Shown one piece after another: positions 1,354-44,965 of a stretch of DNA of 64,000 bases (its first letter is position 1; each line of letters opens with the position of its first letter). Source of the stretch: Sycon ciliatum (Eukaryota; Porifera; Calcarea; Leucosolenida; Sycettidae). The notes under the pieces are model-generated. The model did not search any database, was not told the origin of the DNA, and saw only the letters and a program-made list of their open reading frames with translations. The position numbers and the translations under genes are program-made. Where the stretch lies: positions 13,746,731 to 13,810,730 of the forward strand of contig NC_088655.1 of NCBI RefSeq assembly GCF_964019385.1. The letters are read 5' to 3'.

Positions 1354-1367
1354 CTGGTAGCTTGAGG

Positions 1368-8676: not shown

Positions 8677-8835
8677 TGTAATAGTTTTACCTTGACACTT
8701 CTTGCTTGTCTTATGGTAACACCTTGTGTTCCTACTATTCTCACTCCTGCGGTTCTCACCTTTCTTTTGCTTTATAACCTCTGGTTTGAACATCATTCGA
8801 CGAATTCTCCAATCAATCAAGTCTATACTGTTACA
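8677..8835 (+). mobile_element. 5' LTR, chromovirus copy 2
   Basis: A 159-bp LTR that starts TGTAATAG and ends CTGTTACA. It is identical to the 3' LTR. A TATA-like TTTATAAC lies at 8771-8778, leaving room for a short R-U5 before the end. It is unusually short for this superfamily. Confidence 0.95.
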
Positions 8836-8836
8836 C

Positions 8837-8855
8837 TGGTAGCTTGAGGATGGTT
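8837..8855 (+). promoter_or_regulatory. Primer-binding site, initiator tRNA-Met
   Basis: TGGTAGC followed by TT and then GAGGATGGTT is complementary to the 3' end of metazoan initiator tRNA-Met (…AACCATCCTCTGCTACCA), with one small bulge (TT opposite a single base). It starts one base after the LTR. The gag ATG (8850-8852) lies inside the site. The tRNA sequence is from general knowledge; the match is read from the window. Confidence 0.75.
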
Positions 8856-10684: not shown

Positions 10685-13393
10685 TCCCCCTTTGGTGCAC
10701 CGGTGTTTTTTGTCAAGAAAGCTGATGGTTCGTTACGCATGGTCTGCGATTGGAGGGAGCTAAACAAGATAACTGTTAAGAACAAGGCGTGCTTGCCCAA
10801 TGTGGATGATTTATTCGATACCGTACAGGGCGCTAGGTACTTCACGAAACTAGACCTCCGATCAGGGTATAATCAGATTCGCATTCAAGCTGAGGACGTG
10901 CCCAAAACCGCGATTAACACTCCCTTTGGGCATTACCAATTTACGGTCATGGGATTTGGTCTCACCAATGCACCGGCAACATTTCAATCCATGATGAATA
11001 CGATTCTTCAACCATATCTGAGGGAGTTCGTAGTCGTGTTCCTAGATGACATACTCATCTTCAGCAAAACGTGGTCGGAGCATATGCAGCATGTCCGGTC
11101 GGTATTGAGCGTGCTCCGGGACAACCAGTTATTTTGCAAACGGTCAAAATGTGAATTTGGCGTGGAGAGTGTGCGGTTCCTGGGACATTGCATCGATGGA
11201 CTGCACATCGCCCCTGACCCAGACAAGATTGCCGCAGTAAAGGTCTGGCCCGCTCCGACTTCCGTCACAGAGGTGAGGCAATTTCTTGGATTTACGAATT
11301 ATTTTAGGCGATTCATAGATCAATACTCATCGCTCTCTAAGAACTTAGAGGAGATAACGGGAAAACATGCACGATTCGAGTGGAACAGCTCTCGGCAACA
11401 TGCCTTTGAATCGCTAAAGCATGCCTTGTTGAATGCGCCCCTATTGCGGCTGGCTGATGTGAACCGACCATTCAGAGTGGTAACAGATGCAAGCGATTTC
11501 GCCTTGGGATGTGTTCTTCTCCAAGAACTAGAGGAAGATGCCTGGCATCCAGTGGCTTATGCTAGCCGAAAATTGTCTGCTGCGGAACAGAATTATACAG
11601 CTACAGAAAGAGAAACATTGGCCGTAGTGTTTGCGCTAAAGACCTGGCGCATCTACCTCTTTCAACACTTTGAGGTCATTACAGACAACATGGCGGTAGT
11701 TTATCTGAAAACAAAACCAAGCATTACAAAGAGAGAGGCGCGATGGGTTGAATTCCTAGCTGACTATAACTACACAGTCCGTCACAGACCCGGCAGAGAG
11801 AACCCTGCAGATCCCCTTTCGCGTCGCCCAGATCTCCATGAGAGTAACCTCGTGGAGAATGCAGTACCACGTTTGAATGCTATTGAGTATGCTTTAGCAA
11901 TGAATGATGACGTGTCCAATACAATATCAGATGCCTACCAGAGAGACAAAGAGCTAACTCCCATCATAGAAAGATTGAAGCATTCTCTCCGAGATAATTT
12001 GCATGATCGCTATTATTGGGACGAATCCACTGATCGCTTGTACCTCAAGGCATCCCCCAATAACCGGTTGTGCATACCACAGTGCGGTGTCCGGTTAAAG
12101 CTCATTCAAGAACACCATGAGTGTGCAACGGCTGGCCACCCGGGTCGTGATCGAACGTACTTCCGCCTAGCACGTTTTTTCTACTGGCCCCGAATGGGTC
12201 TCGATATCAAGAGATTTGTCAAAACCTGTGATCTCTGCCAGCGAACGAAGGGAGGTCAGCCACGAACAGGGCTTCTCCAGTCACTTCCAATACCTAATAG
12301 TCCTTGGCAGGATATCTCAATGGATTTTATTGTTGGATTGCCCCTTACTTCTCGTGGCTTCGACGCAATTTACACCTTTGTGGACCGACTTACGAAATGC
12401 GTACATCTTGTTCCAACAAACTCGAAGATTGATGCTAAGGGCAGCGCTCAACTGTACATTCAAAACGTGTTTCGTCTGCACGGGCTGAGCTCAACCATTG
12501 TTTCCGATCGCGATCCACGATTCACTGCAGCTTTTTTCAAAGAAGTATTCTCTCAGCTAGGAACTAAATTGGCATTCAGCACTGCTAACCACCCTCAAAC
12601 GGATGGTTTGACAGAGAGAGTTAACCGGCAAGTGGGAGATGTTCTAAGAGCATTTGTGAACTTGAGACAGGACAATTGGGATTCGCTTCTACCACTCTGC
12701 GAGTTTGCAATAAATAGTTCACAACAGTCATCTGTAGCTAATACACCGTTCTATCTGAACTATGGGTTTGACCCTAAGTCCCCGCCCGAATTCATTCTTA
12801 CGGGAGGGGAAAGGAGTGATTCGGTCGATTGGCTTCATGAGCAGGAAGCCGCACTAAGGATAGCTCGAGATGCTATGCTCGACGCCCAGGCAAGGCAAGC
12901 TCTATACGCAGACCAGACGAGAACGCCCAGTGATTTGAAGGTTGGTGATAGCGTTCTTGTCTACAGAGACTTTCTACTGACCCCGGAAGCTCGTGGCCAG
13001 CCCTCTCGGAAGTTGCAACCCAAGTGGTTTGGTCCGTATCGTATCCAGGCTAAGATTGGAGCGAATGCTTTTCGCTTGGAACTACCCCGTGAACTTCGCT
13101 GCCATCCCGTGTTTAATGTCACTGCTCTTAAACGCTACGAAGAGAACACGATTCCTGGAAGACACCAACCCCCGCCTGCGCCCTTCACAGATCTAGATGG
13201 ACACACACGCTATGTTGTCGAAGCCGTTTTGAATCACCGACACCGCAGTGGTGAGCAACACTTCCTGGTGCATTGGAAGGGTTACCCCAGCAGCGAAGCT
13301 ACGTGGGAGCCCGCTGGCAACCTATGTGATGAGTCTGGTCGGAATATTAAACCGCTGCAGAACTATCTAGCCTCACAACGACAGCAGCCTTGA
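10685..13393 (+). CDS. Pol: RT, RNase H, integrase, chromodomain
   Basis: The frame continues directly after the TAG for 902 codons. Numbering from the Val at 10703: RT about 1-200 with catalytic D51 (LDLRSGY) and FLDD at 113-116; RNase H from TDAS at 261 to about 380; integrase HHCC zinc finger (HHECATAGHPGRDRT … CDLCQRTK) at about 480-530; D,D-35-E core (MDFIVGLP, VSDRDPRFT, NHPQTDGLTERVN); and a C-terminal chromodomain in the last 55 residues (EQHFLVHWKGYPSSEATWEP). It copies RNA to DNA and integrates it. All catalytic residues I could check are present. No in-phase ATG begins the frame, so it depends on translation from upstream. Confidence 0.95.
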   Translation, partial: SPFGAPVFFVKKADGSLRMVCDWRELNKITVKNKACLPNVDDLFDTVQGARYFTKLDLRSGYNQIRIQAEDVPKTAINTPFGHYQFTVMGFGLTNAPATFQSMMNTILQPYLREFVVVFLDDILIFSKTWSEHMQHVRSVLSVLRDNQLFCKRSKCEFGVESVRFLGHCIDGLHIAPDPDKIAAVKVWPAPTSVTEVRQFLGFTNYFRRFIDQYSSLSKNLEEITGKHARFEWNSSRQHAFESLKHALLNAPLLRLADVNRPFRVVTDASDFALGCVLLQELEEDAWHPVAYASRKLSAAEQNYTATERETLAVVFALKTWRIYLFQHFEVITDNMAVVYLKTKPSITKREARWVEFLADYNYTVRHRPGRENPADPLSRRPDLHESNLVENAVPRLNAIEYALAMNDDVSNTISDAYQRDKELTPIIERLKHSLRDNLHDRYYWDESTDRLYLKASPNNRLCIPQCGVRLKLIQEHHECATAGHPGRDRTYFRLARFFYWPRMGLDIKRFVKTCDLCQRTKGGQPRTGLLQSLPIPNSPWQDISMDFIVGLPLTSRGFDAIYTFVDRLTKCVHLVPTNSKIDAKGSAQLYIQNVFRLHGLSSTIVSDRDPRFTAAFFKEVFSQLGTKLAFSTANHPQTDGLTERVNRQVGDVLRAFVNLRQDNWDSLLPLCEFAINSSQQSSVANTPFYLNYGFDPKSPPEFILTGGERSDSVDWLHEQEAALRIARDAMLDAQARQALYADQTRTPSDLKVGDSVLVYRDFLLTPEARGQPSRKLQPKWFGPYRIQAKIGANAFRLELPRELRCHPVFNVTALKRYEENTIPGRHQPPPAPFTDLDGHTRYVVEAVLNHRHRSGEQHFLVHWKGYPSSEATWEPAGNLCDESGRNIKPLQNYLASQRQQP

Positions 13394-13613
13394 TCTAACT
13401 GGGCTGAGCCATATGCATCTCTTACTGAGATAGTTAATAATTATGTTATAGACTGATATAGTTTTGCGTCATCTCCTTGTGAGAGTGATGAAGTTGAGTT
13501 GGATTACACTTCAATGTGGTTATGCATGTGCATGAGTGATTATTTAATATTCCCCTTTCCACAATTGCATCTCCTAACTGGATTGTGTTATCTAATAGAA
13601 CCTTGGGCTTCCT

Positions 13614-16493: not shown

Positions 16494-16740
16494 TATTAAT
16501 GAACCTCTCTATAACATGATCCATGCTCCTCTCTATAACATGACCCAGCTGTAGTGCGAGTGGTCGCATTGATTATATTTTTAGTTTGCTTGTAGGCCGA
16601 TATAACCCACATTAAAACTTGGAGATTGAATATGGGTGCCAGTGGCCTACAAGCAAACTAAAAATGAAATCAATACGACCAATACCATTACAGCTAGGTC
16701 ATGTTATAGACAGGTGCATCAAAAATTGACCGGTGGTCAA
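16494..16740. repeat. Inverted junction at the start of the 365-bp satellite
   Basis: A plus-orientation piece (ACCCAGCTGTAGTGCGAGTG … GTTTGCTTGTAGGCC, 16538-16597) is followed after about 45 bp by its reverse complement (GGCCTACAAGCAAACTAAAA … CAGCTAGGTCATGT, 16643-16707). The satellite therefore opens with a head-to-head inversion able to form a large hairpin. Confidence 0.85.
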
Positions 16741-19700
16741 ATATGGTCAAAATTTGACAATTTCCCACCTTTCTTCCCGTTTGAAGGTCAGGACCTGAAA
16801 AATGACCATCCTGATCCTTTTCTGTAGCTGGACATAGGGAGGTGCACCAAGACAAAAAGCCACATTTCTCTGAACAACTCGCCAAGGGCTGCTGAAAGCT
16901 GGAAATAACCTATCTCCAAGTTCGGGGCTTGTCGCCGTGAATCTTCACTTTGCGACTAAAGTATTCACAGCAGTGCCAAAGTTTCTAGATCATTGAATGT
17001 GGGTGTCAGCGGCCTACAAGCAAACAAAAAATGAAATCAATACGACCACTCACATTATAGCTAGGTCATGTTATAGACAGGTGCATTAAAATTGACAGGT
17101 GGTCAAAATATGGTCAAAATTTGACAAATTTTCACCGTTCTTCTCGTTTGATACTCAGCACCTGAATATTGACCATCCTGATCCTTTTGTATAGCTGGAC
17201 ATAGGGAGTGGCACCAAGAAAAAAGCCACATTTCTCTAAACAACTCGCCCAGGGCTGCTGAAAGCTGAAAATGACCTATCTCCAAGTTCGGGGCTTGTCG
17301 CCGTGAATCTTCACTTTGCGACTAAAGTATTCACAGCAGTGCCAAAGTGTCTAGGTCATTGAATGAGGGTGTCAGCGGCCTACAAGCAAACAAAAAATGA
17401 AATCAATACGACCACTCACATTACAGCTAGGTCATATTATAGAGAGGTGCATTAAAATTGACAGGTTGTCAAATATGGTCAAAAATTGACAAATTCTCAC
17501 CTTTCTTCCCGTTTGAAGGTCAGGACCTGAATAATGACCATCCTTATCCTTTTCTGTAATTGGACATAGGGAGTTGCACAAGACCAAACGCCACATTTCT
17601 CTAAACAACTCGCCAGGGGCTGCTGAAAGCTGAAAATAACAAGGTTTGGGGCTTGTCGCCGTGAATCTTCACTTTGCGACTAAAGTACTCACAGCAGTGC
17701 CAATATTTCTATGTCATTGAATGTGGGTGTCAGCGGCCTATCAGCAAACAAACAATGAAATCAATACGACCACTCACATTACAGCTAGGTCATGTTATAG
17801 AGAGGTGCATTAAAATTGACAGGTTGTCAGATATGGTCAGCATTTGACAATTTCTCACCTTTCTTCCTGGTTGAAGCTCAGAACCTGAATAATGACCATC
17901 CTGATCCTTTTGTATAGCTGAACATAGGGAGGTGCACCAAGAAAAAAAGCCACATTTCTCTAAACAACTCGCCCAGGGCTGCTGAAAGCTGAAATTAACC
18001 TATCTCCACGTTTGGGGCTTGTCGCCGTAAATCTTCACTTTGCGACTAAAGTATACACAGCAGTGCCAAAGTTTCTAAGTGATTGAATGTGGGTGTCAGC
18101 GGCCTACAAGCAAACAAAAAATGAAATCAATACGACCACTCACATTACAGCTAGGTCATGTTATAGAGAGGTGCATTAAAATTGACAGGTAGTCAAATAT
18201 GGTCCAAATTTGACAAATTCTCACCTTTCTTCCTGTTTGAAGCTGAACACCTGAATAATGACCATCCTGATCCTTTTCTGTAGTTGGACAGAGGAAGGGG
18301 CACCAAGAAAAAAGCCACATTTCTCTAAAAAACTAACCCAGGGCTGCTGAAAGCTGAAAATGACCTATCTCCGAGTTTGGGGCTTGTCGCCGTGAATCTC
18401 CACTTTGCGACTAAAGTATTGACAGCAGTGCTAAAGTTTCAAGGTCATGAAATGTGGGTGTCAGCGGCCAACAAGGAAACAAAAAATTAAATCAATACGA
18501 CCACTCACATTACAGCTAGATCATGCTATAGACAGGAGCATTAAAATCGACAGGTTGTCAAATATGGTCAAAATTTGACAAATTCTCACCGTTCTTCCCG
18601 TTTGAAGCTCAGCACCTGAATAATGACCATCCTGATCCTTTTGTATAGCGGGACATAGGGAGGTGCACCAAGAAAAAAGCCACATTTCTCTAAACAACTC
18701 GCCCAGGGCTGCTGAAAGCTGAAAATAACCTATCTCCAAGTTTGGGGCTTGTCGCCATGAATATTCACTTTGCGACTAACGTATTCACAGCAGTGCCAAA
18801 GTTTCTAGGTCATTGAATGTGGGGACCAGCGGCCTACAAGCAAACAAAAAATAAAATCAATACGACCACTCACATTACAGCTAGGTCATATTATAGAGAG
18901 GTGCATTAAAATTGACAGGTGGTCAAATATGGTCAAAAATTGACAAATTATCACCTTTCTTCCCGTTTGAAGCTCAGCACCTGAATAATGACCATCCTGA
19001 TCCTTTTGTATAGCTAACCATAGGGAGGTGCACCAAGAAAAAGCCACATTTCTCTAAACAACTCGCCCAGGGCTGCTGAAACCTGAAAATCACTATCCTG
19101 ATCCTTTTTTATAGCTGGACATAGGGAGGTGCACCAAGAAAAAAGCCATATTTCTCTAAACAACTCGCCCAGGGCTGCTGAAAGCTGAGAATGACCTATC
19201 TCCGAGTTTGGGGCTTGTCGCTTGAATCTCCACTTTTCGACTAAAGTATTCACAGCAGTGCCAAAGTGTCTAGGTCATTGAATGTGGGTGTCAGCGGCCT
19301 ACAAGCAAACAAAAAATTGTATCAATACGACCACTCACATTACAGCTAGGTCATGTTATAGAGAGGTGCATTAAAATTGACAGGTGGTCAAATATGGTCA
19401 AAATTTGACAAATTCTCACCGTTCTTCTCGTTTGAAGCTCAGCACCTGAATAACGACCATCCTGATCCTTTTGTATAGCTGGACGTAGGGAACGGCACCA
19501 AGAAAAAAGCCACATTTCTCTAAACAACTCGCCCAGGGCTGCTGAAAGCTGAAAATAACCTATCTCCAAGTTCTGGGCTTGTCGCCGTGAATCTTCACTT
19601 TGCGACCAAAGTATACACAGCAGTGCCAAAGTTTCTAGGTGATTGAACGCACCATTACATTCATTCACACAGTATCACATTCATCTGCCACTACCTTTCT

Positions 19701-21545
19701 CACATACACTATATTCACACATTGCAAAGGTGCAAACTTCCCTTTTTGTACCTGTTAGCTGCTGTATTTCTACCTGAAACCATATTAGCTACATGTATAT
19801 AAGTGTGTGTTTTAGTTATTACATTTTTATGTGACGGCGTTCCACTGATGACAGTCACAAGAAAACGTTATGGAACTTGACTTTCTTCATTTTTGCTGTT
19901 GTTATGAGTGCACAATTTATCTTATTTATTGCCATTTTACGACTATTGTCTCCTCGTCGATTGTTTAAATTATTACATTTCTTCCCGTTTGAAGCTCAGC
20001 ACCTGAATAATGACCATCCTGATCCTTTTGTATAGCTGGACATAGGGAGGTGCACCAAGAAAAAAAGCCACATTTCTCTAAACAACTCGCCCAGGGCTGC
20101 TGAAAGCTGAAATGACCTATCTCCGAGTTCGGGGCTTGTCGCCGTGAATCTTCACTTTGCGACTAAAGTATTCACAGCAGTGCCAAAGTGTCTAGGTCAT
20201 TGAATGTGGGTGTCAGCGGCTTACAAGCAAACAAAACATGAAATCAATACGACCACTCACATTACAGCTAGGTCATGTTATAGACAGGTGCATTAAAATT
20301 GACAGGTGGTCAAATATGGTCAAAATTTGACAAATTCTCACCGTTCTTCCCGTTTGAAGCTCAGCACCTGAATAATGACAATCCTGATCCTTTTGTTTAG
20401 CTGGATATAGGGAGGTGCACCAAGAAAAAAAGCCACATTTCTCTAAACAACTCGCCCAGGGCTGCTGAAAGCTGAAAATATACTATCTCCAAGTTCGGGG
20501 CTTGTCGCCGTGAATCTTCACTTTGCGACTAAAGTATTCACAGCAGTGCCAAAGTTTCTAGGTCAATGAATTTGGGTGTCAGCGGCCTACAAGTTAACAA
20601 AAAATTAAGTCAATACGACGACTCACATTACAGCTAGGTCATGTTATAGAGAGGTGCATTAAAATTGACAGGTGGTCAAATTTGGTCAAAATTTGACAAT
20701 TTCTCACCGTTCTTTCCGTTTGAAGCTCAGCACCTGAATAATGACCATCCTGATCCTTTTTTTATAGCTGGACATAGGGAGGTGCACCAAGAAAAAAAGC
20801 CACATTTCTCTAAACAACTCGCCCAGGGCTGCTGAAAGCTGAAAATGATCTATGTCCGAGTTTGGGGCCTGTCCCTTGAATCTCCACTTTGCGACTAAAG
20901 TATTCACAGCAGTGCCAAAGTGTCTAGGTCATTGAAAGTGGGTGTTGGCGGCCTACAAGCAAACCAAAAATTAAATCAATACGACCACTCACATTACAGC
21001 TAGGTCATGTTATAGAGAGGTGCATTAAAATTGACAGGTTGTCAAATATGGTCAAAATTTGAACAATTATTACCTTTCTTCCCGTTTGAAGCTCAGCACC
21101 TGAATAATGACCATCCTGATCCTTTTGTATAGCTGGACATAGGGAGGTGCACCAAGAAAAAAAGCCACATTTCTCGAAACAACTCGCCCAGGGCTGCTGA
21201 AAGCTGAAATTGACCTATCTCCAAGTTCGGGGCTTGTCGCCGTGAATCTTCACTTTACGACTAAAGTATTCACAGCAGTGCCAAAGTTTCTCGGTCATTG
21301 AATGTGGGTGTCAGCGGCCTACAAGCAAACAAAAAATTTAATCAATACGACCACTCACATTACAGCTAGGTCATGTTATAGAGAGGTGCATTAAAATTGA
21401 CAGGTGGTCAAATATGGTCAAAATTTGACAAATTCTCACCGTTCTTCCCGTTTGAAGCTCAGCACCTGAATAATGACCATCCTCATCCTTTTCTGTAGTT
21501 GGACATAGGGAGGTGCACCAAGAAAAAAAGCCACGTTTCTCTAAT
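16741..21545 (-). repeat. 365-bp satellite array, minus orientation
   Basis: About 13 tandem monomers of roughly 365 bp. The landmark GTGTCAGCGGCCTACAAGCA recurs near 17001, 17367, 17725, 18090, 18458, 18822, 19288, 20208, 20575, 20942 and 21306. Every monomer includes CAACTCGCCCAGGGCTGCTG and TGCGACTAAAGTATTCACAG. One monomer has an internal 100-bp duplication (about 19080-19180). Apparent short minus-strand frames that repeat LSAALGELFREMWLF are products of the repeat, not genes. Confidence 0.95.
19640..19982. other. Foreign insert within the 365-bp satellite
   Basis: About 340 bp that do not match the satellite replace part of a monomer. ATTACATT occurs at both edges and may be an 8-bp duplication. 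The insert holds GTTCCACTGATGACAG at 19838-19853 followed by AAGAAAACGTTATGGAAC, a weak hammerhead-like arrangement discussed in the findings. No coding frame is present. Confidence 0.5.
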
Positions 21546-21615
21546 AACATGACCCAGCTGTAATGTGACTGCTCGGATTGATTTGATTTTCTGTTAGCTT
21601 GTAGGCCGCTGACAC
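21546..21615 (+). repeat. 365-bp satellite, orientation switch
   Basis: After AAGCCACGTTTCTCT the sequence changes to TAACATGACCCAGCTGTAAT, the reverse complement of the earlier monomers. This is the inversion point between the left and right arms of the satellite domain. Confidence 0.85.
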
Positions 21616-22691
21616 TAGGCTCCGGTGGATTATGCTCGCAAAATCAAGGAATTATGCTTTCATGGATTCTCGCATTATGCTCGTAAAATCCTCATATTAT
21701 TCTTTGGCACCCGGGGATATATATTCACTTTGTTGTACTTATGGAGCCTCAAAGTTCGGGAAATTGTGCCTTTTTTCGTACTTGCAAGTGGCCATCAGTA
21801 CAACAAAATGCATGTACATGTACATGAGTATCCCCATACCAAGGTGTCCATGCATGTAAGAGATCAACATGGAAAGGAGAAAACAATACTTCTTCTATTC
21901 ATTACTTGATTTCTTTTGTACTTCGGTACAAATATTATTTCATTGCCAAATTAGTTTGAGTTACCTTTGAAAATTATCATGTTCAACTGTCTTCGTAATC
22001 ATCATACTCGTCCAACCGATGTCACCCTGGGCCTCACCCTGCGAATAATCAGCTCATCTCTCCCGTAGCTCCACTTCTCCTTCCATCATGACCGAACATC
22101 AACTATACATCAGTTTAGAGCAATATCCGTACAAGCCTGCAGTCATATCATGGCTGCTAAATATCCAGAGGCAGAGGTCATGATCTCGTAACATGCATAA
22201 TGTACAAATGTAATGTACATGTACATGGAGTTTTGCGGACTACCCGCCACTATCTCGTCCGTTGCCCCGGGATACCTGATGAAGTGTGATTCACTCGCAT
22301 CTTCTGCTACATGTACTTTGTCAGTGTGAGAAAACGGAACTTTGAAGAAGACGAGTTCGAGCATACCGTAACGTATTGACATGATTTCTACCCTGCTTTT
22401 CATTGAAAACACTACCTGCATGACCTCCGAACCCTTTGCCAGGCAGACCACCAGCACTGATCAGGTGCATTGTACACAATTGTATAGCCTACATACTAGA
22501 ACTGTGGTATAATCGTGTAGTTATTATTATTAGTATTATTATTGACAAATTTTTGATAGGGCAATTCCCACAGGCCTAAGGCCTTCTTACAGGGTTATGC
22601 TCCTATCTCCGAGAGGATGCCAAATTATGCTCCAAATTTTCAACCACCAAATTATGCCAATAATTATGCCGGCATAATCCGCAGGTGCCTA
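21616..22691. mobile_element. hAT-like non-autonomous element (ATTATGC family)
   Basis: This 1,076-bp element has ends TAGGCTCCGGTGGATTATGC and, on the other strand, TAGGCACCTGCGGATTATGC. The flanks are GCTGACAC (21608-21615) and GCTGGCAC (22692-22699), an 8-bp target duplication with one mismatch, as expected for hAT. Both ends hold clusters of ATTATGC-type motifs that may be subterminal transposase sites. The interior has no recognisable transposase. Confidence 0.75.
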
Positions 22692-24819
22692 GCTGGCACC
22701 CACATTCAATGACCCAGAAACTTTGGCACTGCTATGAATACTTTAGTCGCAAAGTAAAGATTCACGGCGAAAAGTCCCAAACTTGGAGATAGTTTTTTTT
22801 CAGCTTTCAGCAGCCCTGGGCGAGTTGTTTAGAGAAATGTGGCTCTTTTTCTTGACGCACCTTCCTATGTCCAGCTATACAACAAGCTCCGGATGGTCAT
22901 TGTTCCGGTTTTGAGGTTCAAACGTGCAGAAAGGTGAGAAACTGTAAAATTTTGACTATTTTTTTACCACCTGTCAATTTTAATGCACCTCTCTATAACA
23001 CGACCCAGCTGTAATGTGAGTGCTCGCCTGGATTTGATTTTTTCGTTTCCTTGTAGGCCGCTGGAACCCACATTCAATGACCCAGAAACTGTAGCACTGC
23101 TGTGAATACTTTAGTCGCAAAGTGAAGATTCACGGCGAAAAGTCTCAAACCTGGAGATAGGATATTTTCAGCCTTCAGCAGCCCTGGGCGAGTTGTTTAG
23201 AGAAATGTGGCTGTTTTCTTGATGCACCTCCCTATGTCCAGCTACACAACAAGATCAGGATAGTGATTTTCAGGTTTTCAGCTTCAAACGTGCGGAAAGG
23301 TGAGAAATTGTCAAAATTTGACCAATTTTGACCACTGGTCAATTCTAATGTACCTGTCTATAGCATGACCCAGCTGTGATAATAGCGCTCGCATTGATTT
23401 GATTTTTTGTTTTCTAGTAGGCCGTTGGCAACCACATGTAATGACCCAGAAATGTTAGTACTGATGTGAATACTTTAGTCACAAAGTGAAGATTCAAGGC
23501 GAAAAGCCCCAAACTTGGAGATATTTTACTTTCAGCTTTCAGCAGCCCTGAGCGAGTTGTTTAATGAAATTTGGCTCTTTTACTTCATACACCTTCCTAT
23601 GTCCAGCTTATACAACAAGCTCTGGATGGTTCTTTTTCAGGTTTTGAGGTCCAAACGTGCAGAAAGGTGAGAAATAGTCAACTTTTGACCATTTTTGACC
23701 ACCTGTCAATTTTAATGCACCTCTCTATAACACGACCCAGCTGTAATGTGAGTGGTCGTATTGATTTGATTTTTGGTTTGCTTGTAGGCCGCTGGCACCC
23801 ACAGTTACTGATCCGGAAACTGTAGCACTGCTGTGAATACTTTAGTCGCAAAGTGAAGATTCACGGCGAAAAGTCCCAAACTTGGAGATAGGTTATTTTC
23901 AGCTTTCAGCAGCCCTGGGCGAGTTGTTTAGAGAAATGTGGCAGTTTTTTTATGCACCTCCCTATGTACAGCTACACAACAAGATAAGGATAGTGATTTT
24001 TCAGGTTTTCAGCTTCAAACGTGCAGAAGGGTGAGAAATTGTCAAATTTTGACCAATTTTGACCACCTGTCAATTTTAATGTACCTGTCTATAGCATGAC
24101 CCAGCTGTAATAATAGTGCTCGCATGGATTTGATTTTTTTGTTTTCTAGTAGGCCGTTGGCAACCACATGTAATGTTCCACTGATGTGAATACTTTAGTC
24201 GCAAAGTAAAGATTCACGGCGAAAAGCTCCAAACTTGGAGATATTTTATTTTCAGCTTTCAGCAGCCCTGGGCGAGTTGTTTAGAGAAAAGTGGCTGTAT
24301 TTCTTCGTGCACCTCCCTATATCAGGCTATACGCCAAGATTATGTCGGTCATTGTCAAGGTTTGAGCTTCAAACAGGCAGTAAGGTGAGAAATTGTCAAA
24401 TTGTGACCATTTTTGACCACCTGTCAATTTTAATTCACCTCTCTATAATATGACCCAGCTGTAATGTGGGTGGTCGCATTGATTTGATTTTTGGGTTGCT
24501 TATAGGCTGCTGGCACCCACATTCAATGACCCAGAAACTGTAGCACTGCTGTGAATACTTTAGTCGCAAAGTGAAGATTCACGGCGAAAAGCCCCAAACT
24601 TGGAGATATTATATTTTCAGCTTTGAGCAGCCCTGGGCGAGTTGTTTAGCGAAATGTGGCTCTTTTTCTTGGTGCACCTCCCTATATCAAGATATACGCC
24701 AAGATGAAGATGGTCATTGTGAAGGTTTGAGCTTCAAACGGGCAGTATGGTGACCAATTGTAAAATTTTGACCATTCTTGACCACCTGTCAATTTTAATG
24801 CACCTCTCTATAACATGAC
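22692..24819 (+). repeat. 365-bp satellite array, plus orientation, part 1
   Basis: About 6 monomers, reverse complement to the left arm, with GGCACCCACATTCAATGACC and AGTCGCAAAGTGAAGATTCA as landmarks. Two monomer subtypes alternate, one with GATTTTTTGTTTTCTAGTAG and one with TTTTTGGTTTGCTTGTAGGC. Confidence 0.95.
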
Positions 24820-25582: not shown

Positions 25583-26362
25583 TTGTTGCAATGGAGAGCT
25601 TGGAGTTTCCGCTACCACGTAGAGCCTTCGATTATTGCAGGATTAAACCAGCACGTGTCTTTTCCGACCTGTATTTCCAGAGGCAACTTGAAGTCCTGCC
25701 TCGACGTTGTCATCTCCAACGTACCAGAAGAAGACCTATCTGTCACATCGTATGCCCCTGTCGGAGCGTCAGATCATGTACTCGTCGGAGGACATGTGCC
25801 CCTTGCATGCCCACCACAAGCACCGACACCCCAGCATAACGTCGAAGCATGGCGCTGGAACTGGGACCCTGATCGCGTCGTCGCACTGAAAGAAGCCCTG
25901 AGCTCAATGCAGCTTTTGCCACCAGCTGAGGAAATCCCGCAGTTATCAATGACAGACCTCTGGTCGCATTGGCATGACTCGCTTATCAACACAGCACACG
26001 TGTACTGTACTAACTTCGCACCACGACATACACACCAGACATGCCCAGGTCGGCGACCATGGATGACTCAACAGCTTCTTTGCAGCATTAAACTCAAGCA
26101 TCAGCTCTACCGTCAGTATCTCAGAACTCGCAGTGCCGAGAACTGGCTCACATTCGTTACTCAACGCAATATGACCACAACACTACTGAGAGAAGCTAAA
26201 TCCGCCTTCGTATCCACTACCGCGCAAGGCGACGTGACTGGTGTCCCGCAGCGAAACCTGTACAAGTTAATGAAATCACTGCGGTCGTCCCCGAAAAGGA
26301 GCTTCCACCTATTTCAGCGAACGAAACAGTGGCTAGATCAGACGGAGAAAAGGCGGAAGCGT
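25583..26362 (+). pseudogene. LINE (non-LTR retrotransposon) fragment, endonuclease end to RT linker
   Basis: The frame shows the last part of an apurinic-type endonuclease (SCLDVVISNVPEED and GASDHVLVGGHV) followed by the spacer typical before RT (RRPWMTQQLLCSIKLKHQLY, REAKSAFVSTTAQG). It is broken at 26362 by a hAT-like insertion; the frame resumes briefly after the second copy of the target duplication at 27777. The catalytic RT core is missing. Similarity suggests a CR1/L2/Jockey-like LINE, with the clade unresolved. Confidence 0.75.
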
Positions 26363-27029
26363 TAGGCCTTGACGGATTTTGCTAGCATAATTTTTCGCAT
26401 AATTCCTACCAAAATCGAATAATCGCATAATTCGAGGCAAAATGCATACGAATCGCATACAATTGTAATAATCCGCCTGTTCGCATCAAATTCCATACAG
26501 TTGTACATGTTCTACAAGTACAAGTACAAGTAGATGCACTAGGAAGTTGTAGGTTTACGACTCCCTTGATAACATGTACAGTCCACTACAATCAGTGATG
26601 GTCGTAGCTAGGTCAGACGGTGCGTTGACCCCGTTGAACTTTTGCTACTACAGTACAACGCCCTCTACAAAAAAGTTCCCCTGTTAAGCCATGGTAAAAA
26701 ATAAATTTTATTCTCAGGTCATGAGCCTGTGAAAATCGGTGCGAGCGAGCGACTTTTTATTCTATTTCCCACAATTTTTTCATTTCCAAAGATAGGGTCA
26801 CACACATGAACGTCACAGGTTATTATAATTATTTATTATTCAGGCCAGGACGAAATAGTGGTTGCGACTTCGGCGATGATTTGTAAGAAAGGTTTGCTCC
26901 CCACACCGGAGCTCGCTCTATTCCGCCGACTTTACTTGACACTTGACTGACTCACGACTGCCATCCAGAGCACACGAGAAGTCCATCGAACCTTCGACTC
27001 GGCAAACCTGCAAGAAAGCACCACTCCCT

Positions 27030-27075
27030 GCTCAATACACAGTGTTTCGGGGAATTCACCCCTCATCAGTTGAGC
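27030..27075 (-). ncRNA. Hammerhead ribozyme motif, minus strand
   Basis: Read on the minus strand: stem I 5' arm GCTCAA, core CTGATGA, stem II GGGG/CCCC with loop TGAATT, core GAA, a tiny stem III ACAC/GTGT with one-base loop, cleavage after GTA, then stem I 3' arm TTGAGC. It is the mirror copy of the motif at 27293-27338 in the other arm of the palindrome. Confidence 0.8.
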
Positions 27076-27292
27076 TTGAGTAGGCTGAGGAAGATTGTGC
27101 CTGAAGAGCACCACTTATATAGTGCTCTCCAGGCACAAACATCACCAGGGATACAAACTTACAGAGACGCTCCGCTTCCAGCGCGACAAACACCGGAGCG
27201 TCTCTGTAAGTTTGTATCCCTGGTGATGTTTGTGCCTGGAGAGCACTATACAAGTGGTGCTCTTCAGGCACAATCTTCCTCAGCCTACTCAA

Positions 27293-27338
27293 GCTCAACT
27301 GATGAGGGGTGAATTCCCCGAAACACTGTGTATTGAGC
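27293..27338 (+). ncRNA. Hammerhead ribozyme motif, plus strand
   Basis: Stem I GCTCAA (27293-27298) pairs with TTGAGC (27333-27338). The core CTGATGA is at 27299-27305, stem II GGGG (27306-27309) pairs with CCCC (27316-27319), GAA follows at 27320-27322, and stem III is ACAC/GTGT. Predicted cleavage is after GTA at 27332. Stem I extends past an internal loop: CTACTC (27285-27290) can pair with GAGTGG (27342-27347). All conserved core positions are present. The very short stem III is typical of hammerheads in Penelope-like elements, which are proposed to act as dimers. Confidence 0.85.
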
Positions 27339-27776
27339 AGGGAGTGGTGCTTTCTTGCAGGTTTGCCGAGTCGAAGGTTCGATGGACTTCTCGTGTGCTC
27401 TGGATGGCAGTCGTGAGTCAGTCAAGTGTCAAGTAAATTCAGGCCAGGGAGTAGAAAAATACCGGTATTTTACTACTCCCTGATTCACGCCTTTCGCAAT
27501 GACCGTTTTCATGTGCGCATATGCATGCATAGAAATAAAACAAATCATCCGTGCGCCGCCAAAAATCGGTGCGCGCGTACTTGAGAATCAAAGATAATTT
27601 TTACCATGGCCTTATTTTGCACAGAACCATTTGCATTAGCAGCATATGTGAGCATAATGCGGCATAATATGATAACTTTTAGCATAAAAATAGCATAATT
27701 CTGCAATTTTTTCAGCAATGCGAAAAGCATAATTTCACAAAAATATTAGCATAATCCGTCAAGGCCTAGGAAGCGT

Positions 27777-28760: not shown

Positions 28761-28898
28761 TAATAATATTGAATTTGAGCAAGAAATGACGGAGTTACGA
28801 AGGTTGCTATTTTCGAAAAATGTTCGAAAAAATTGCTGCATAACCGTCGATCAAACGGTTATCCGTTTGTTTGACCCTAACGGTTACTTTCAGCCCTA

Positions 28899-31786
28899 AA
28901 CATGACCCACCTGTAAAAGGAGTGGTCGCATTGATTTGAATTTTGGTTTGTTTGTAGGCTGCTGGCACCCACATTCAATGACCCAGAAACTTTGGCACTG
29001 ATGTGAATACATTAGTAGGAAAGTGAAGATTCACGGCGAAAAGCACCAAACTTGGAGATAGGTTATTTCCAGCTTTCAGCAGCCCTGGGCGAGTTGTTTA
29101 GAGATATATGGCTCCCTTTCTTGGCGCAGCTTCATGTGTCCAGCTTTACAACAAGATAAGAATGGTCATTTTTCAGGTTTCGAGGTCCAACCGTGCAAAA
29201 AGGTGAGAAATTGTCAAAAGGTTGACCATTTTTGACCACCTGTCAATTTTAATGCACATCTCTATAACATGACCTAGCTGTAATGTGAGTGCTCGCATGG
29301 ATTGGATTTTTGGTTTTCTTGTAGGCCGCTGCAACCCACATTCAATGACCCAGACACATTGGCATTGCTGTGAATATTTTAGTCGCAAAGTGAGATTCAC
29401 GGCGAAAAGTCTCAAACTTTGAGATTGGTTATTTTCAGCTTTCAGCAGCCCTGCGCGAGTTGTTTAGAGAAATGTGGCTCTTTTGTTTGGTGCACCTTCA
29501 TATGTCCAGCTATACAGCAATATCAGGATGGTCATTTTCGGGTTTTGGGATTTCAAACGTGCAGAAAGATGAGAAATTGTCAAATTTGACCATTTTTGAC
29601 CACCTGTCAATTTTAATGCACCTCTCTATAACACGACCCAGCTGTAATGTGAGGGCTCGCATTGATGTACTTTTTGGTTTGCTTGTAGGCCGCTGGCACC
29701 CACATTCAATGACCCAGAAACTTTGGCACTGCTGTGAATACTTTAGTCGCAAAGTAAAGATTCACGGATAATATTCCCAAACTTGGAGATATTCTATTTT
29801 CAGCTTTCAGCCGCCCTGGGCGAGTTGTTTAGAGAAACGTGTCTGTTTTTCTTGGTGCACCTCCCTATATCAGGCTTTACGCCAAGATTAAGGTGGTAAT
29901 TGTCAAGGTTTGAGCTTCAAACGGGCAGTAAGGTGAGGAATTGTCAAATTTTGACCATTTTGGACTACCTGTCAATGTTAATGCACCTATCTATAACATG
30001 ACCCAGCTGTAATGTGAGTGGTCGTATTGATTTGATTTTTGGGTTGCTTGTAGGTCGCTGGAACCCACATTCAATGGTCCAGAAGTTCTGTCACTGCTGT
30101 GAATACTTTAGTCGCAAAGTGAAGGAAGATTCACGGCGAAAAGCTCCAAACTTGGAGATAGGTTATTTTCAGCTTTGAGCAGCCCTGAGCGAGTTGTTTA
30201 ATGAAATGTGGCTCATTTTCTTCGTCCACCTTCCTATGTCCAGATTATACAACAAGCTCCGGATGGTCCTTTTTCAGGTTTTGAGGTCCAAATGTGCAGA
30301 AAGGTGAGAAATAGTCAAATTTTGACCATTTTTGACCACCTGTCAATTTTAATGCACCTCTCTATAACACGACCCAGCTGTAATGTGAGTGGTCGTATTG
30401 ATTTAATTTTTGGTTTCCTTGTAGGCCGCTGGCACCCACATTCAATGACCCAGAAGCTGTAGCACTGCTGTGAATACTTTAGTCGCAAAGTGAAGATTCA
30501 CGGCGAAAAGTCCCAAACTTGGAGATAGGTTATTTCCAGCTTTCAGCAGCCCTGGGCGAGTTGTTTAGAGAAATGTGGCTCTTTTACTTCGTACACCTTC
30601 CTATGTCGAGCTTATACAACAAGCTTCGGATGGTTCTTTTTCAAGTTTTGAGGTCCCAACGTGCAGAAAGGTGAGAAATAGTCAAATTTTGACCATTTTT
30701 GACCACCTGTCAATTTTAATGCACCTCTCTATAACATGACCCAGCTGTAATGCGAGTGGTCGTATTGATTTGATTTTTGGTTTCCTTGTAGGCCGCTGAC
30801 ACCCACATTTAATGACCCAGAAACTGTAGCACTGCTGTGAATACTTTAGTCGCAAAGTGAAGATTCACGGCGAAAAGTCCCAAACTTGGAGATAGGTTAT
30901 TTTCAGCTTTCAGCAGCCCTGGGCGAGTTGTTTAGAGAAATACGGCTGTTTCTTTTTTATGCACCTCCCTATGTCCAGCTACACAACAAGATCAGGATAG
31001 TGATTTTTCAGGTTTTCAGCTTCAAACGTGCGGAAAGGTGAGAAATTGTCAGCTGTAATAATAGTGCTCGCATTGATTTGATTTTTTGTTTTCTAGTAGG
31101 CCGTTGGCAACCACATGTAATGACCCAGAAATGTTAGTACTGATGTGAATACTTTAGTCACAAAGTGAAGATTCACGGCGAACAGCCCCAAACTTGGAGA
31201 TATTTTATTTTCAGCTTTCAGCAGCCCTGAGCGAGTTGTTTAATGAAATGTGGCTCTTTTACTTCGTACACCTTCTTATGTCCAGCTTATACAACAAGCT
31301 CTGGATGTTGTTTTCAGGTTTTGAGGTCCAAACGTGCAGAAAGGTGAGAAATAGTCAAATTTTGACCATTTTGGACTACCTGTCAATGTTAATGCACCTA
31401 TCTATAACATGACCCAGCTGTAATGTGAGTGGTCATATTGATTTGATTTTTGGGTTGCTTGTAGGTCGCTGGAACCCACATTCAATGGTCCAGAAGTTCT
31501 GTCACTGCTGTGAATACTTTAGTCGCAAAGTGAAGATTCACGGCGAAAAGCTCCAAACTTGGAGATAGGTTATTTTCAGCTTTGAGCAGCCCTGAGCGAG
31601 TTGTTTAATGAAATGTGGCTCATTTTCTTCGTCCACCTTCCTATGTCCAGATTATACAACAAGCTCCGGATGGTCCTTTTTTAGGTTTTGAGGTCCAAAC
31701 GTGCAGAAAGGTGAGAAATAGTCAAATTTTGACCATTTTTGACCACCTGTCAATTTTAATGCACCTCTCTATAACACGACCCAGCT
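28899..31786 (+). repeat. 365-bp satellite array, plus orientation, part 2
   Basis: About 8 monomers continue the array after the hAT-like element. Segments at 29985-30480 and 31395-31780 are near copies of each other, pointing to duplication of multi-monomer blocks. Confidence 0.95.
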
Positions 31787-33028
31787 CTCGTCGACGTCGG
31801 CGGATAATGCTCGATAATCACACAGATTATGCTTTTCAGTATGCTGGCAATATGCTCTGAAAATCACTAAATTATGCTCAAATTATGCTTCATGACACTG
31901 TGCTCTTTCATGTTTATAATGCCACTAAAATGTATAGAATGGGTACTCGGTATCAAATGTGGACTTCCGGAGAAAACTGCATGGAAGAAGATCTAGTATA
32001 GCTATGAATAGTATGAAGGCCGCACACATCACGCAACTACGTTACTTGTTCGACATGTATGACTGTGTATTTTAATTTAAGAAGATCTAGTCTCAGCTAT
32101 GGAGAAGGAACCAGGATACGGCAATAGGCACTGCAACATCATTACAAGCATAATCATGTACAGAAATAATAGAATACTGAGTGTTCATTGTAAGCGTATG
32201 GCACAAGTACTGCTGATGTACATGGAGTTGCTTACCTCTCCTTCTTTCTTATCCTTTCTTTTCCTTCTTCTCTCTCTTTGTTTGCCACGGCGACCCCGTG
32301 TGCTGTCTGTGACTTTGAGCCTCATTTCACTTTACTACTTTTTTTTCTCTTTAACGTTACGTAATACTTTATACCAGGCGTGGGCCATCCACTGTACATA
32401 CATGGTAACATGTAGGTGCTACCATTTTTCCTAGTTTCAATAAAATAGAATCAGAGTCACTGCAGTGACTTATGCATGACACTGCATTGAAAACATGACT
32501 TCAGATATGCATTTGGGAGAATAATGTGCAAGAAATTTGAAAACAATAACAGAAATACCAGTCGAACAGTGGCAGCTTTGGCTGCTGGAGAGACCACATC
32601 CTACAAAGGCTACATGCATCTACTGATCACTAATTCAAAAGCCAGAGGATTCCCCTGCCTTTGTAACAAACAACGAACTCTGGACGGTGAACTTTTGACC
32701 TTTGACGGCCTAAACATTACTTATCTGTTACATTTACAGTCACTGAGTGTAGATCAGGCCCTTTCACGGAGCCGTGCCAGATATATACCGTGGTATGGTA
32801 CGACTCCCTGCCGAGTCCCGGGTGTAGATCTATTTACATTGTATAGGAGGATTCCCTTGCCTTTGTAACAAACAACGGACTCTGGACGGTGAACTTTTGA
32901 CCTTTGAGGCCCTAGTGGTTTTATGCAGCAGTTATGCTGAAGGATCAACTAAATTATGCTCGGCAATGCTATTTTTCAGAAAGCCGTGATTATGCTCAAA
33001 ATTATGCCCGCATTATCCGCCGATGACT
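31787..33028. mobile_element. hAT-like non-autonomous element (ATTATGC family)
   Basis: This 1,242-bp element is flanked by an exact 8-bp duplication ACCCAGCT (31779-31786 and 33029-33036). The end regions are related by inversion (GACGTCGGCGGATAATGC and AGTCATCGGCGGATAATGC). ATTATGC-type motifs cluster at both ends. The interior has a direct repeat containing CTCTGGACGGTGAACTTTTG (near 32680 and 32880) and no transposase. Confidence 0.75.
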
Positions 33029-35786
33029 ACCCAGCTGTAATGTGAGTGGTCGTATTGATTTGATTTTTGGTTACCTTGTAGGCCGCTGGCACCCACATTC
33101 AATGACCCAGAAGCTGTAGCACTGCTGTGAATACTTTAGTCGCAAAGTGAAGATTCACGGCGAAAAGTCCCAAACTTGGAGATAGGTTATTTCCAGCTTT
33201 CAGCAGCCCTGGGCGAGTTGTTTAGAGAAATGTGGCTCTTTTACTTCGTACACCTTCCTATGTCGAGCTTATACAACAAGCTTCGGATGGTTCTTTTTCA
33301 GGTTTTGAGGTCAAAACGTGCAGAAAGGTGAGAAATAGTCAATTTTTGACCATTTTTGACCACCTGTCAATTTTAATGCACCTCTCTATAACATGACCCA
33401 GCTGTAATCTGAGTGGTCGTATTGATTTGATTTTTGGTTTGCTTGTAGGCCGCTGACACCCACATTTAATGACCCAGACACTGTAGCACTGCTGTGAATA
33501 CTTTAGTCGCAAAGTGAAGTTTCACGGCGAAAAGTCCCAAACTTGGAGATAGGTTATTTTCAGCTTTCAGCAGCCCTGGGCGAGTTGTTTAGAGAAATGT
33601 GGCTGTTTTTTATGCACCTCCCTATGTCCAGCTACACAACAAGATCAGGATAGTGATTTTCAGGTTTTCAGCTTCAAACGTGCGTAAAGGTGAGAAATTG
33701 TCAAATTTTGACCAATTTTGACCACCTGTCAATTTTAATGTACCTGTCTATAGCATGACCCAGCTGTAATAATAGTGCTCGCATTGATTTGATTTTTTGT
33801 TTTCTAGTAGGCCGTTGGCAACCACATGTAATGACCCAGAAATGTTAGTACTGATGTGAATACTTTAGTCACAAAGTGAAGATTCACGGCGAACAGCCCC
33901 AAACTTGGAGATATTTTACTTTCAGCTTTCAGCAGCCCTGAGCGAGTTGTTTAATGAAATTTGGCTCTTTTACTTCGTACACCTTCTTATGTCCAGCTTA
34001 TACAACAAGCTTTCGATGTTTTTTTCAGGTTTTGAGGTCCAAACGTGCAGAAAGGTGAGAAATAGTCAAATTTTGACCATTTTTGACCACCTGTCAATTT
34101 TAATGCACCTCTCTATAACACGACCCAGCTGTAATGTGAGTGGACGTATTGATTTGATTTTTGGTTTCCTTGTAGGCCGCTGGCACCCACATTCAATGAC
34201 CCAGAAGCTGTAGCACTGCTGTGAATACTTTAGTCGCAAAGTGAAGATTCACGGCGAAAAGTCCCAAACTTGGAGATAGGTTATTTCCAGCTTTCAGCAG
34301 CCCTGGGCGAGTTGTTTAGAGAAATGTGGCTGTTTTTTTTTATGCACCTCCCTATGTCCAGCTACAAAACAATATCAGGATAGTGATTTTTCAGGTTTTC
34401 AGCTTCAAACGTGCGTAAAGGTGAGAAATTGTCAAATTTTGACCAATTTTGACCACCTGTCAATTTTAATGTACCTGTCTATAGCATGACCCAGCTGTAA
34501 TAATAGTGCTCGCATTGATTTGATTTTTCGTTTTCTAGTAGGCCGTTGGCAACCACATGTAATGACCCAGAAATGTTAGTACTGATGGGAATACCTTAGT
34601 CGCAAAGTGAAGATTCACGGCGAAAAGCCCCTACCTTCGAGATATTTTATGTTCAGCTTTCAGCAGCCCTAGGCGAGTTGTTTAGATTAAAGTGGCTGTT
34701 TTTCTTCGTGCTATATCAAGCTATACGCCAAGATTAAGTCGGTCATTGTCAAGGTTTGACCTTCAAACAGGCAGTAAGGTGAGAAATTGTCAAATTGTGA
34801 CCATTTTTGACCACCTGTCAATTTTAATGCAACTCTCTAAAACATGACCCGGCTGTAATGTGGGTGGTCGCATTGATTTGATTTTTGGTTTGCTGGTAGG
34901 CTGCTGGCACCCACATTCAATGACCCAGAAACTTTGGCACTGTTGTGAATACTTTGGTCGGAAAGTGAAGATTTACGGCGAAAAGCACCAAACTTGGAGA
35001 TAGGTTATTTTCAGTTTTCAGCAGCCCTGGGCGATTTGTTTAGAGAAATTTGGCTCCATTTCTTGGCGCAGCTTCATATGTCCAGCTTTACAACAAGATC
35101 AGGATGGTAATTTTTCAGGTTTTGAGGTCCGAACGTGCAGAAAGGTGAGAAATTGTCGAAATTTGACCATTCTTGACCACTTGTCAAATTTTAATGCACC
35201 TCTCTATAACACGACCCAGCTGTAATGTGAGTGCTCGCATTGATTTAATTTTTGGTTTGCTTGTAAGCCGCTGGAACCCACATTCAATGACCCAGAAACT
35301 TTGGCATGGCTGTGAATACTTTAGTCGCAAAGTAAAGATTCACGGCGAAAATTCCCAAACTTGGAGATATTCTATTTTCAGCTTTCAGCAGCCCTGGGCG
35401 AGTTGTTTAGAGAAACGTGGCTCTTTTGTTTGGTGCACCTTCCTATATCCAGCTATACAACAAGATCAGGATGGTTATTTTTCATGTTTTGGGATTTCAA
35501 ACGTGCCGAAAGGTGAGAAATTGTCAAATTTGACCTTTTTTGACCACCTGTCAATTTTAATGCAAACATGACCCAGCTGTAATGAGACTGAACGCAATGA
35601 TTTGATTCTTGGTTTGCTTGTATGCTGCTGGCACCCACATTCAATGACCCAGAAACGTTGGCATTGATGCGAATACATTAGTCGCAAAGTGAAGATTCAC
35701 GGCGAAAAGCACCAAACTTGGAGATTGGTTATTTTCAGCTTTCAGCAGCCCTGGGCGAGTTGTTTAGAGAAATGTTTTTCTTGGTA
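33029..35786 (+). repeat. 365-bp satellite array, plus orientation, part 3
   Basis: About 8 monomers, the last cut off inside CTTGGTACACC by the TRIM element. The alternation of subtypes follows the same order as in part 2, consistent with block duplication. Confidence 0.95.
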
Positions 35787-35791
35787 CACCT

Positions 35792-36659
35792 ATGGTATTT
35801 TACGTCAACCATGGCGGCTACAATGGCCAACCAGACCACAACGAAGTTGGGGCCAAAGATAAAGTTTATTTCTTTCACGTGAAAATATATACAGGGGCCA
35901 TTTTTACGAAAAATGATTTATGTATACAAAAATGCATGTACGAGGTCACTACATTACACCCCCACCAGAGATGAAGCCGAGAGCAGTTGCTGAAGAACGC
36001 CAAACGGAAAAAAAGATCTTGGAAAGGAAAGGAAAGAGTGAGCGAAGCGTACAAAGCGGAAAGACGGGAAAGAAAAATACACTATACAAGGAGAAAGACT
36101 GTACAAAGAGAAAAAATATGCGCTGCATGTGGAATACCGTTGTATGACACGTGGACACAAGGTCCAAAACAAGGTAGAAAAATGCAGGAAAGGGAAAGAG
36201 GAAACATGCGTGACAGAGGTGGAAGAACGTATCAGAGGCAGTCCAGAGAAAGAAAGTAGAGAAAGGAACAAGGGAAACGTACGCGTGACAGAGGAGGACG
36301 GAACTTGATCTTGTCAGAGGCGGCAGCGGGCTAGGAGATCGTGGCGGTTGATCGGCGGATCGGTGGATGGTGGGCTGGTGAGGTTGTGGGCTTGGGCGCC
36401 TGCTCAATCTGGGCCGCGGAGGTCGAAGGCGCGATGGCCTGCTCCATGCCATCCATACAGCAACTCCGACTCAGCGCAGTGTCAGGGGTCACCAATTATG
36501 GTGTTTTACGTCAACCATGACGGCTACAATGGCCAACCAGACCACAACGAAGTTGGGGCCAAAGAGAAAGTTTATTTCTTTCACGTGAAAATATAAACAG
36601 GGGCCATTTTTACGAAAAATGATTTATGTATACAAAAATGCATGTACGAGGTCACTACA
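35792..36659. mobile_element. Terminal-repeat retrotransposon in miniature (TRIM)
   Basis: Two direct repeats of 162 bp (35792-35953 and 36498-36659) flank a 544-bp purine-rich interior and are themselves flanked by CACCT (35787-35791 and 36660-36664). The satellite sequence continues across the site. The interior has no gag or pol motif. LTR1 and LTR2 differ at about four positions. A primer-binding site is not obvious after LTR1 (TTACACCCCCACC). Confidence 0.8.
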
Positions 36660-44235: not shown

Positions 44236-44965
44236 AGGGGTGAAACGAACAAGGAATTTCGTATACGAACGAACTTCAACACTAACGAACGAACTCGAAC
44301 GAATATTCTCTAATGAATGTAGTTACCAAGACAGTATAGCCGTGTGTCCACTCGATTTATATTTGCAGAATTCATAAAGTTGTGATGGTAAATAAACCCT
44401 GTAATGCGTGACTGTGTGTTCATCGTATAATACAGTACTTGTGGATAACATTTGATGTTGCAAAAACAACGGAAGAAAGAAAGTGCAGATTGGAGAGGCA
44501 CAGTTCCAGTTCCACCGACATCGGTAGCGATTGCAGCTACTGAAGATCTGGAACTGGCAGCAGAGTGGCAGGACAGCAGGTGCCAAGACCTCAACAACCT
44601 CCTCTTCCAAAACTTCATCAAGCTCAACTACAGCAGCCTGCTTGACGGCTACTCGCCCTGCAGCTGGCCCTTGTGCGCTCCTAAGCCGCTGGTTCTGTTG
44701 GAGGAAGATCAGTGCGTCGATATTCACTGGTGACAGTGCCGACCGGAGCTTGGACACGATGTGCCCTGCTGCCGAAAACACCCGCTCGGACGGCACAGAA
44801 GTCGCAGGGACACACAAGACTTGCCTAGCCACCTGGCTTAGCACGCTGAACCGGGACCCGTGCATGCGCCACCAGCTCAACGGATCCATGGATGAAGGTG
44901 CCGCCTTCTCGCCGAAGAACCAACCTCTATGTAGTGCTGCGACGGCAGAACTTCACATCACGTGA
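44236..44965 (-). pseudogene. hAT transposase C-terminal fragment
   Basis: On the minus strand, residues after the ATG at 44889 read DPLSWWRMHG, then LCVPATSVPSERVFSAAG and ALSPVNIDALIFLQQN: the hAT dimerisation domain with its conserved W, PSER(V/I)FS and N motifs. The N-terminal catalytic part is missing. A hAT-type end TAGGGGTGAAACGAACAAGG lies at 44236 on the plus strand, downstream of the transposase. Codons after LQQN look degenerate. It is a dead copy, but it shows that autonomous hAT elements existed in this genome. Confidence 0.8.

Follow-up and report, generated by a model that had tools for sequence, protein, structure and literature searches.

This locus raises the question of what kind of element carries a hammerhead ribozyme motif on both arms of a palindrome, and how such an element comes to be inserted. 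An earlier note on the same DNA had described it as a hammerhead ribozyme in a palindromic retroelement. From the window (the whole 64,000-nucleotide stretch of Sycon ciliatum DNA analysed here) and from its relatives elsewhere in the assembly, we consider it very probable that the motif belongs to a high-copy, non-coding and non-autonomous retroelement, built of ~479-nt units arranged head-to-tail, each of which contains a hammerhead of type I together with a 3' tail that acts as the start site of a Penelope-type reverse transcriptase (RT).

The hammerhead motif

The plus strand at 27293-27338 has the complete core of a type I hammerhead (CUGANGA, GAA, UH); by both sequence and predicted fold, stem I is the open helix, and stems II and III are capped by loops. 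Stem I pairs GCTCAA with TTGAGC, CTGATGA starts at 27299, and stem II (GGGG-TGAATT-CCCC, with a 6-nt loop) is followed by GAA and by a stem III, ACA-CTG-TGT, of 3 bp and a 3-nt loop. Past an internal loop (AA/AGG) an outer stem I is formed by CTACTC (27285-27290) and GAGTGG (27342-27347), so that sequence and predicted pairs bear out all the core elements, including this outer helix, at the positions where the earlier note had placed them. Cleavage is predicted after 27332, which we take to be A17 in hammerhead numbering. Work by Cervera in 2014 and by Lunse in 2017 is said to describe minimal hammerheads of Penelope-like elements (PLEs) that act as dimers, of type I with a weak or tiny stem III; the present motif differs from these in its stem III of 3 pairs and in the outer stem I that extends past the internal loop.

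This core, in the right arm of the palindrome (copy A), recurs as two pattern matches on the minus strand, each identical at 46/46 positions: one in copy A itself, in its left (sense) arm (27030-27075, predicted cut after 27036 on that strand) and one in a second copy, copy B (47358-47403, predicted cut after 47364, likewise on the minus strand). A descriptor of the whole type I fold matches these three places in the window and no others, against a chance expectation of 0.0033 per window (37 matches in 11,218 dinucleotide shuffles). Three matching copies in two elements had been offered as an argument against chance; the copies are indeed identical, but they represent one repeat family and are therefore not independent evidence. 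The genome-wide count is stronger: in the window's own assembly (538 Mb, 313 contigs), the core CTGATGA-N14-GAAACACTGTGTA has 3,601 exact matches and the reversed pattern 0. Judged by its sequence, then, the motif is real and beyond chance, as had been claimed, and self-cleavage is predicted.

A comparison with Rfam hammerhead covariance models, proposed in the earlier note as a check, returned no score. The whole window gave 0 matches at the gathering threshold, and queries of 601 and 78 bases matched no hammerhead family up to E = 10. Among controls, Hammerhead_II was found on one contig (L001), and a second contig that is hammerhead-like by eye (L002) gave nothing up to E = 1; since Rfam also missed the latter, its silence is weak evidence against a hammerhead. 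Rfam microRNA matches over the palindrome centre lie below gathering, and the hairpin accounts for them. A similar stem II occurs in two viral contigs, which seem to carry phage hammerheads of no relation to this one; a second viral scan gave 0.

Anatomy of the insertions

Copy A (26850-27436, minus strand) comprises 345 nt of the 3' part of a sense unit (26850-27194), joined head-to-head with an antisense arm. Its inverted repeat of 247 nt occupies 26928-27174 and 27194-27440, the final 4 bases of which are target sequence, and it is flanked by a 12-bp target site duplication, ATTCAGGCCAGG, at 26838-26849 on the left and 27437-27448 on the right. Copy B (47177-47862, minus strand) contains a full 478-nt unit (47177-47654), abutted on its upstream side (in the sense direction) by 92 nt from the end of a second unit, and an inverted arm of 123 nt that ends at a tail-less site, without the last 34 nt; its 12-bp duplication, TATTTGAATCTT, lies at 47165-47176 and 47863-47874. 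The 34 nt concerned form the 3' tail (unit positions 445-478; 47177-47210, minus strand; it includes a stem-loop CGAAGT...ACTTCG with an AC-rich loop), which is found at one end only of copy B and again in copy A at 26850-26883. The sense strand is the minus strand in both copies, and in both the 3' end of the unit adjoins the left duplication. The retroelement setting of the earlier note is thereby upheld, but the palindrome is one insertion product, two arms set head-to-head, of a non-coding tandem repeat of ~479 nt arranged head-to-tail, and not the native element.

The wider genome repeats this anatomy. The first 100 core-match places listed all lie on contig C1 and include 36 pairs of neighbours less than 1.5 kb apart, 21 on the same strand, 15 head-to-head and 0 tail-to-tail; 20 of the 21 same-strand spacings are 477-482 nt and one is 442. 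One head-to-tail joint without a tail, at L035 (G000:C1:2637500-2639320), has a spacing of 442 rather than ~479 nt, as if joined at the tail-less start site. Seventeen loci were compared in detail (copies A and B and 15 fetched stretches, mostly chosen for multi-copy arrangement), selected by exact core match and, besides the window, all on one contig. In all 11 resolvable two-ended insertions (copy B, L031-L039 and L045, which belong to the window's subfamily and have both ends readable), one end falls at unit 475-478, with the tail, and the other at 440-452, without it, the tail-less site being unit 444, blurred by simple repeats or by the duplication. The ends of L038, which carries a second fragment, were read from inner matches, and the inverted arm of L032, a locus with five complete units in succession, is rearranged. 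Copy A ends at 478 and 399; L040 and L044, of another subfamily and not assignable, were left out of the count of ends, and L041-L043 are one-sided. An ATT/AAT repeat appears in a printed flank at 7/17 loci (L034-L038, L041, L045). Duplications outside simple repeats measure 12 bp (copy A), 12 bp (copy B), 12-13 bp (L031) and 8 bp (L039); a script found none at 7/17 loci, and several others sit in simple repeats. A 200-kb sample around the window holds one further copy, 78% identical, with the core lost.

The palindrome might instead have been a DNA-transposon foldback, a reading we rejected given the retroelement tail at the ends of its arms, the 12-bp duplications and the single direction of the joints among the places listed. 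Copy A does lie within a non-autonomous DNA element (26363-27768) with 22-nt terminal inverted repeats and an 8-bp duplication, GGAAGCGT, at 26355-26362 and 27769-27776; on the strength of this duplication we presume it to be hAT-like. Nor is the palindrome part of that host: when the hAT-like ends were used as a BLAST query, the window, copy B included, showed them nowhere else. The host element is itself non-coding, with many subterminal repeats of GCATAA type, and an open reading frame (ORF) with a hAT dimerisation domain occurs in the window at 44326-44952 (minus strand). A second, short palindrome of the perfect type (27445-27482), with 19-nt arms and no spacer, begins right beside the right duplication of copy A.

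The reading frame that crosses the hammerhead has 135 peptide relatives up to E = 1, and a profile search with the same frame yields 235 at E up to 0.001; the 120 listed of each set are short, unnamed and without Pfam domains. By regular expression, among the 120 of 135 relatives listed, the end falls after the tail in 32, at the tail-less site in 33 (including P0105, whose tail is diverged) and earlier or otherwise in 55. Six of those listed share the same short continuation past the tail. P0124 passes from the tail straight into the next unit, as copy B does, with two differences in that stretch, and P0142 runs antisense and then sense, as another palindromic copy.

A proposed mechanism and its template

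The data establish the motif's sequence and fold, the copy number, the period of the unit, the ends, some of the duplications, the polarity of the joints and the likeness of units within loci; to these a model of transposition adds, by inference, a helper enzyme, priming on two strands, a circle and cleavage. The transcript would be re-ligated into a circle after hammerhead cutting, or else left as an uncut multimer, and a PLE would provide in trans the RT-endonuclease that binds it. Both strands of the target, which is often ATT-rich, would then be cut by this enzyme ~12 bp apart, and reverse transcription would proceed from each cut, starting on the RNA at either of two positions separated by 34 nt. 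Two cDNAs, anything from part of a unit to several units in length, would finally be joined head-to-head; copy A would be a short product of this joining, with the consequence that its ribozyme is probably locked in a hairpin. Against the model stand the missing Rfam score, the want of a PLE protein among the window ORFs scanned, the loci at which the script found no duplication, the unlike arms of L033 and the low probability of stem I in a dimer and in the transcript of copy B. In its most specific form, in which a PLE mediates two-sided rolling-circle retrotransposition, such that a re-ligated hammerhead circle is read from both target strands at once, each from its own site (34 nt apart), and the multi-unit cDNAs are sealed head-to-head, we offer the proposal tentatively, at somewhat less than an even chance.

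The state of the template may be read from the likeness of units. Summed over segment pairs, same-strand units within a locus differ by 0.56%, the arms by 1.04% and separate loci by 4.3%. The predicted cut site, after unit position 291, is crossed unbroken by 45 unit segments, and 25 5' ends (from copy A, from ten of the eleven two-ended insertions, L032 being omitted, and from three one-sided loci) are scattered, the nearest lying ~30 nt from the predicted cut. A linear hammerhead-cut monomer was rejected as the usual template, given that the 45 segments read through the cut site and that 0/25 5' ends fall within 30 nt of it. As the units of a locus are mostly near-identical and uncut through this site, the template would have been either a re-ligated circle or else a multimer, uncut and fairly uniform, both of which fit the sequence data as the linear cut monomer does not.

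Between these two, we give close to an even chance to a linear multimer as the template, left uncut and transcribed by read-through of an array already present. Work on Anolis PLEs favours an unprocessed multi-copy RNA substrate (PMC11167929, in excerpt), and the uncut predicted sites in unit segments point in the same direction, as do two features of the loci themselves: the arms of L033 are exceptional in differing at 15/335 positions (4.5%), as much as separate loci do, and 42/179 within-locus differences involve states that are both seen at other loci. Set against this, the units of an array, as many as five, hardly differ (0.27% same-strand difference in the five units of L032, versus 4.3% between loci), for which a monomer circle would be the simpler source.

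Relation to Penelope-like elements and retrozymes

The anatomy described above matches the one known from PLEs, of which an inverted pLTR, a 31-bp tail at one end and a 9-bp duplication have been reported (PMC3846280, in excerpt). In PLEs two adjacent RT start sites bound the tail, cutting is ATT-rich, and both strands are cut and extended, while the hammerhead is located at the start of the ORF (PMC11167929, in excerpt). Our copies share with Adineta Pen2a and with Anolis Poseidon PAc the tandem partial copies, an inverted arm, the tail at one end, duplications of 8-12 bp, ATT-rich targets, an AC-rich stem-loop at the RT start and a hammerhead near an ORF start, and differ from both in that the unit has 479 nt and no RT or GIY-YIG ORF (cited portions of PMC3846280 and PMC11167929). 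The distance from ATG to the 3' end is ~217 nt here and 111-118 nt in PAc (PMC11167929, in excerpt). The insertion anatomy is the published PLE insertion signature, seen here on an ORF-less, retrozyme-like unit. For the Anolis PLE in vitro, the two start sites are described as the same between strands (PMC11167929, in excerpt), so that the strict rule of one end with a tail and one without is unexplained by that work. An imperfect hairpin with TATATAA just upstream of the hammerhead (27095-27138 and 47423-47466) recalls the TATA-bearing pLTR of Adineta PLEs (PMC3846280, in excerpt).

In other respects the unit resembles metazoan non-LTR retrozymes (Cervera and de la Pena 2020, PMC7229834, in excerpt), which likewise consist of short non-coding tandem units with a type I hammerhead, in high copy number, and with duplications >4 bp. 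Its length of ~479 nt slightly exceeds the 150-450 nt given there, its G+C content of 54% departs from the value of <50% that is one of their defining features, and, unlike retrozymes as that excerpt presents them, it bears a PLE tail and head-to-head joints at its ends, as known here from the DNA. The bdelloid rotifer Terminons also have PLE-type hammerheads, but these elements are giant, coding and telomeric (PMC6431247, in excerpt), whereas our unit is short and non-coding. We accordingly regard it as retrozyme-like and non-autonomous, and PLE-like in insertion; the likeness to both PLEs and retrozymes that the earlier note drew from the tiny stem III is strengthened by the tail, the joints and the tandem units.

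An alternative that we consider doubtful, though by no means negligible, is that the copies are the ends (pLTRs) of an ordinary autonomous PLE that codes elsewhere, with the 479-nt unit as a deletion derivative that happened to spread. PLE pLTRs have the same ends and a hammerhead (PMC3846280 and PMC11167929, in excerpt), and the reading frame crosses the hammerhead, as the start of a PLE ORF does. Nevertheless, copy B and P0124 go from the tail directly into the next short unit, L032 has five complete units in a row, and in a search with an X-padded query none of 14 candidate proteins of 325 to 1,033 residues matched the hammerhead frame at E up to 1. The 478-nt unit holds no ORF with a telomerase-like RT and GIY-YIG endonuclease, and scanning 10 of the 24 listed window ORFs revealed no PLE protein, the only RT being of Gypsy type. 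Lacking an RT ORF, the unit was not filed as a PLE. A PLE that shared both tail and hammerhead would support derivative origin, and would leave the mechanism proposed above unchanged.

The helper enzyme of retrozymes is unsettled, with PLEs a strong candidate (PMC7229834, in excerpt), and retrozyme repeats are said to have no conserved motif that reveals the helper (PMC7761336, in excerpt). A link between PLEs and retrozymes has been suspected without being firmly made, and the structure of the present copies points to PLE machinery. With a PLE start-site signature on an ORF-less unit, the question of the helper becomes directly testable with purified PLE protein, and the rule of one end with a tail and one without, together with the likeness of the arms, bears on PLE insertion and on whether the job of the ribozyme is to make circles. 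A literature search found no title or abstract reporting a PLE tail on retrozymes; as Repbase and most subscription papers lay outside it, we do not claim priority.

Conservation and folding of the ribozyme

With one majority row per locus, the 65 sites of the extended hammerhead outside the search pattern have a diversity of 0.011 (6 variable), and the 393 other sites of the unit 0.055 (104 variable); no window elsewhere, out of 225 that overlap one another, reaches so low a value, in a sample biased by the choice of loci for an exact core match. Two of the hammerhead variants keep a G-U pair, two sit in the internal loop and two more lie outside the fold, so that stem covariation amounts to two G-U-preserving changes and no double change, there being too little variation among the sequences compared. 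Unit positions 161-180 and 361-380 (copy B, minus strand) are as conserved as the hammerhead, and nearly free of variation among 16-17 loci; they are candidate promoter or enzyme-binding sites, and on their account the conservation of the hammerhead is no proof of catalysis.

In a folding model without tertiary contacts, a 70-mer forms stem I with a mean probability of 0.90 and stem II with 0.99, and the whole unit, linear or circular, with 0.24 and 0.92; stem III is weak in both (0.08 and 0.13). The probability of stem I drops to 0.01 in a two-unit RNA and to 0.06 in the transcript of copy B. For transcripts of copy A all stem probabilities are 0.0 on both strands (-533 and -543 kcal/mol), because its arms pair; the model predicts a 247-bp hairpin in which the ribozyme is locked by full pairing with its antisense counterpart.

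We think it improbable that the fold is a relic, or serves another role (as a promoter, or a protein- or RNA-binding site), with an RNA that does not cut itself in the life cycle. Such a reading would account for the missing Rfam score, for the 45 segments that pass the predicted cut site uncut, for the equal conservation of 161-180 and 361-380 and for the want of any compensatory stem II change among the variants listed; moreover, hammerhead mutants of an Anolis PLE still inserted in vitro, and cleavage was not seen without protein (PMC11167929, in excerpt). It sits less easily with a fold expected by chance 0.0033 times per window, with the small variation of both sides of the extended stem I outside pattern-fixed sites, and with four in-fold variants that either keep G-U pairing (2) or fall in the internal loop (2). 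More improbable still is an origin of the head-to-head arms by snap-back, in which the first cDNA would fold back on itself to be copied, with no priming of the second strand on RNA: the arms of one locus are mostly alike, and copy A is a near-perfect palindrome, but the outer end of the second arm lies at the tail-less site (unit 440-452) in 11/11 insertions, and not just anywhere.

Other repeats of the window

A Ty3/Gypsy-type retroelement with a chromodomain, partly duplicated, fills 1-13400, and its ORFs at 1308-4660 and 8790-13393 have long identical stretches in common. Large arrays of ~366-nt tandem units, in both orientations, occupy 16600-21600, 22600-24800 and 28800-35900.
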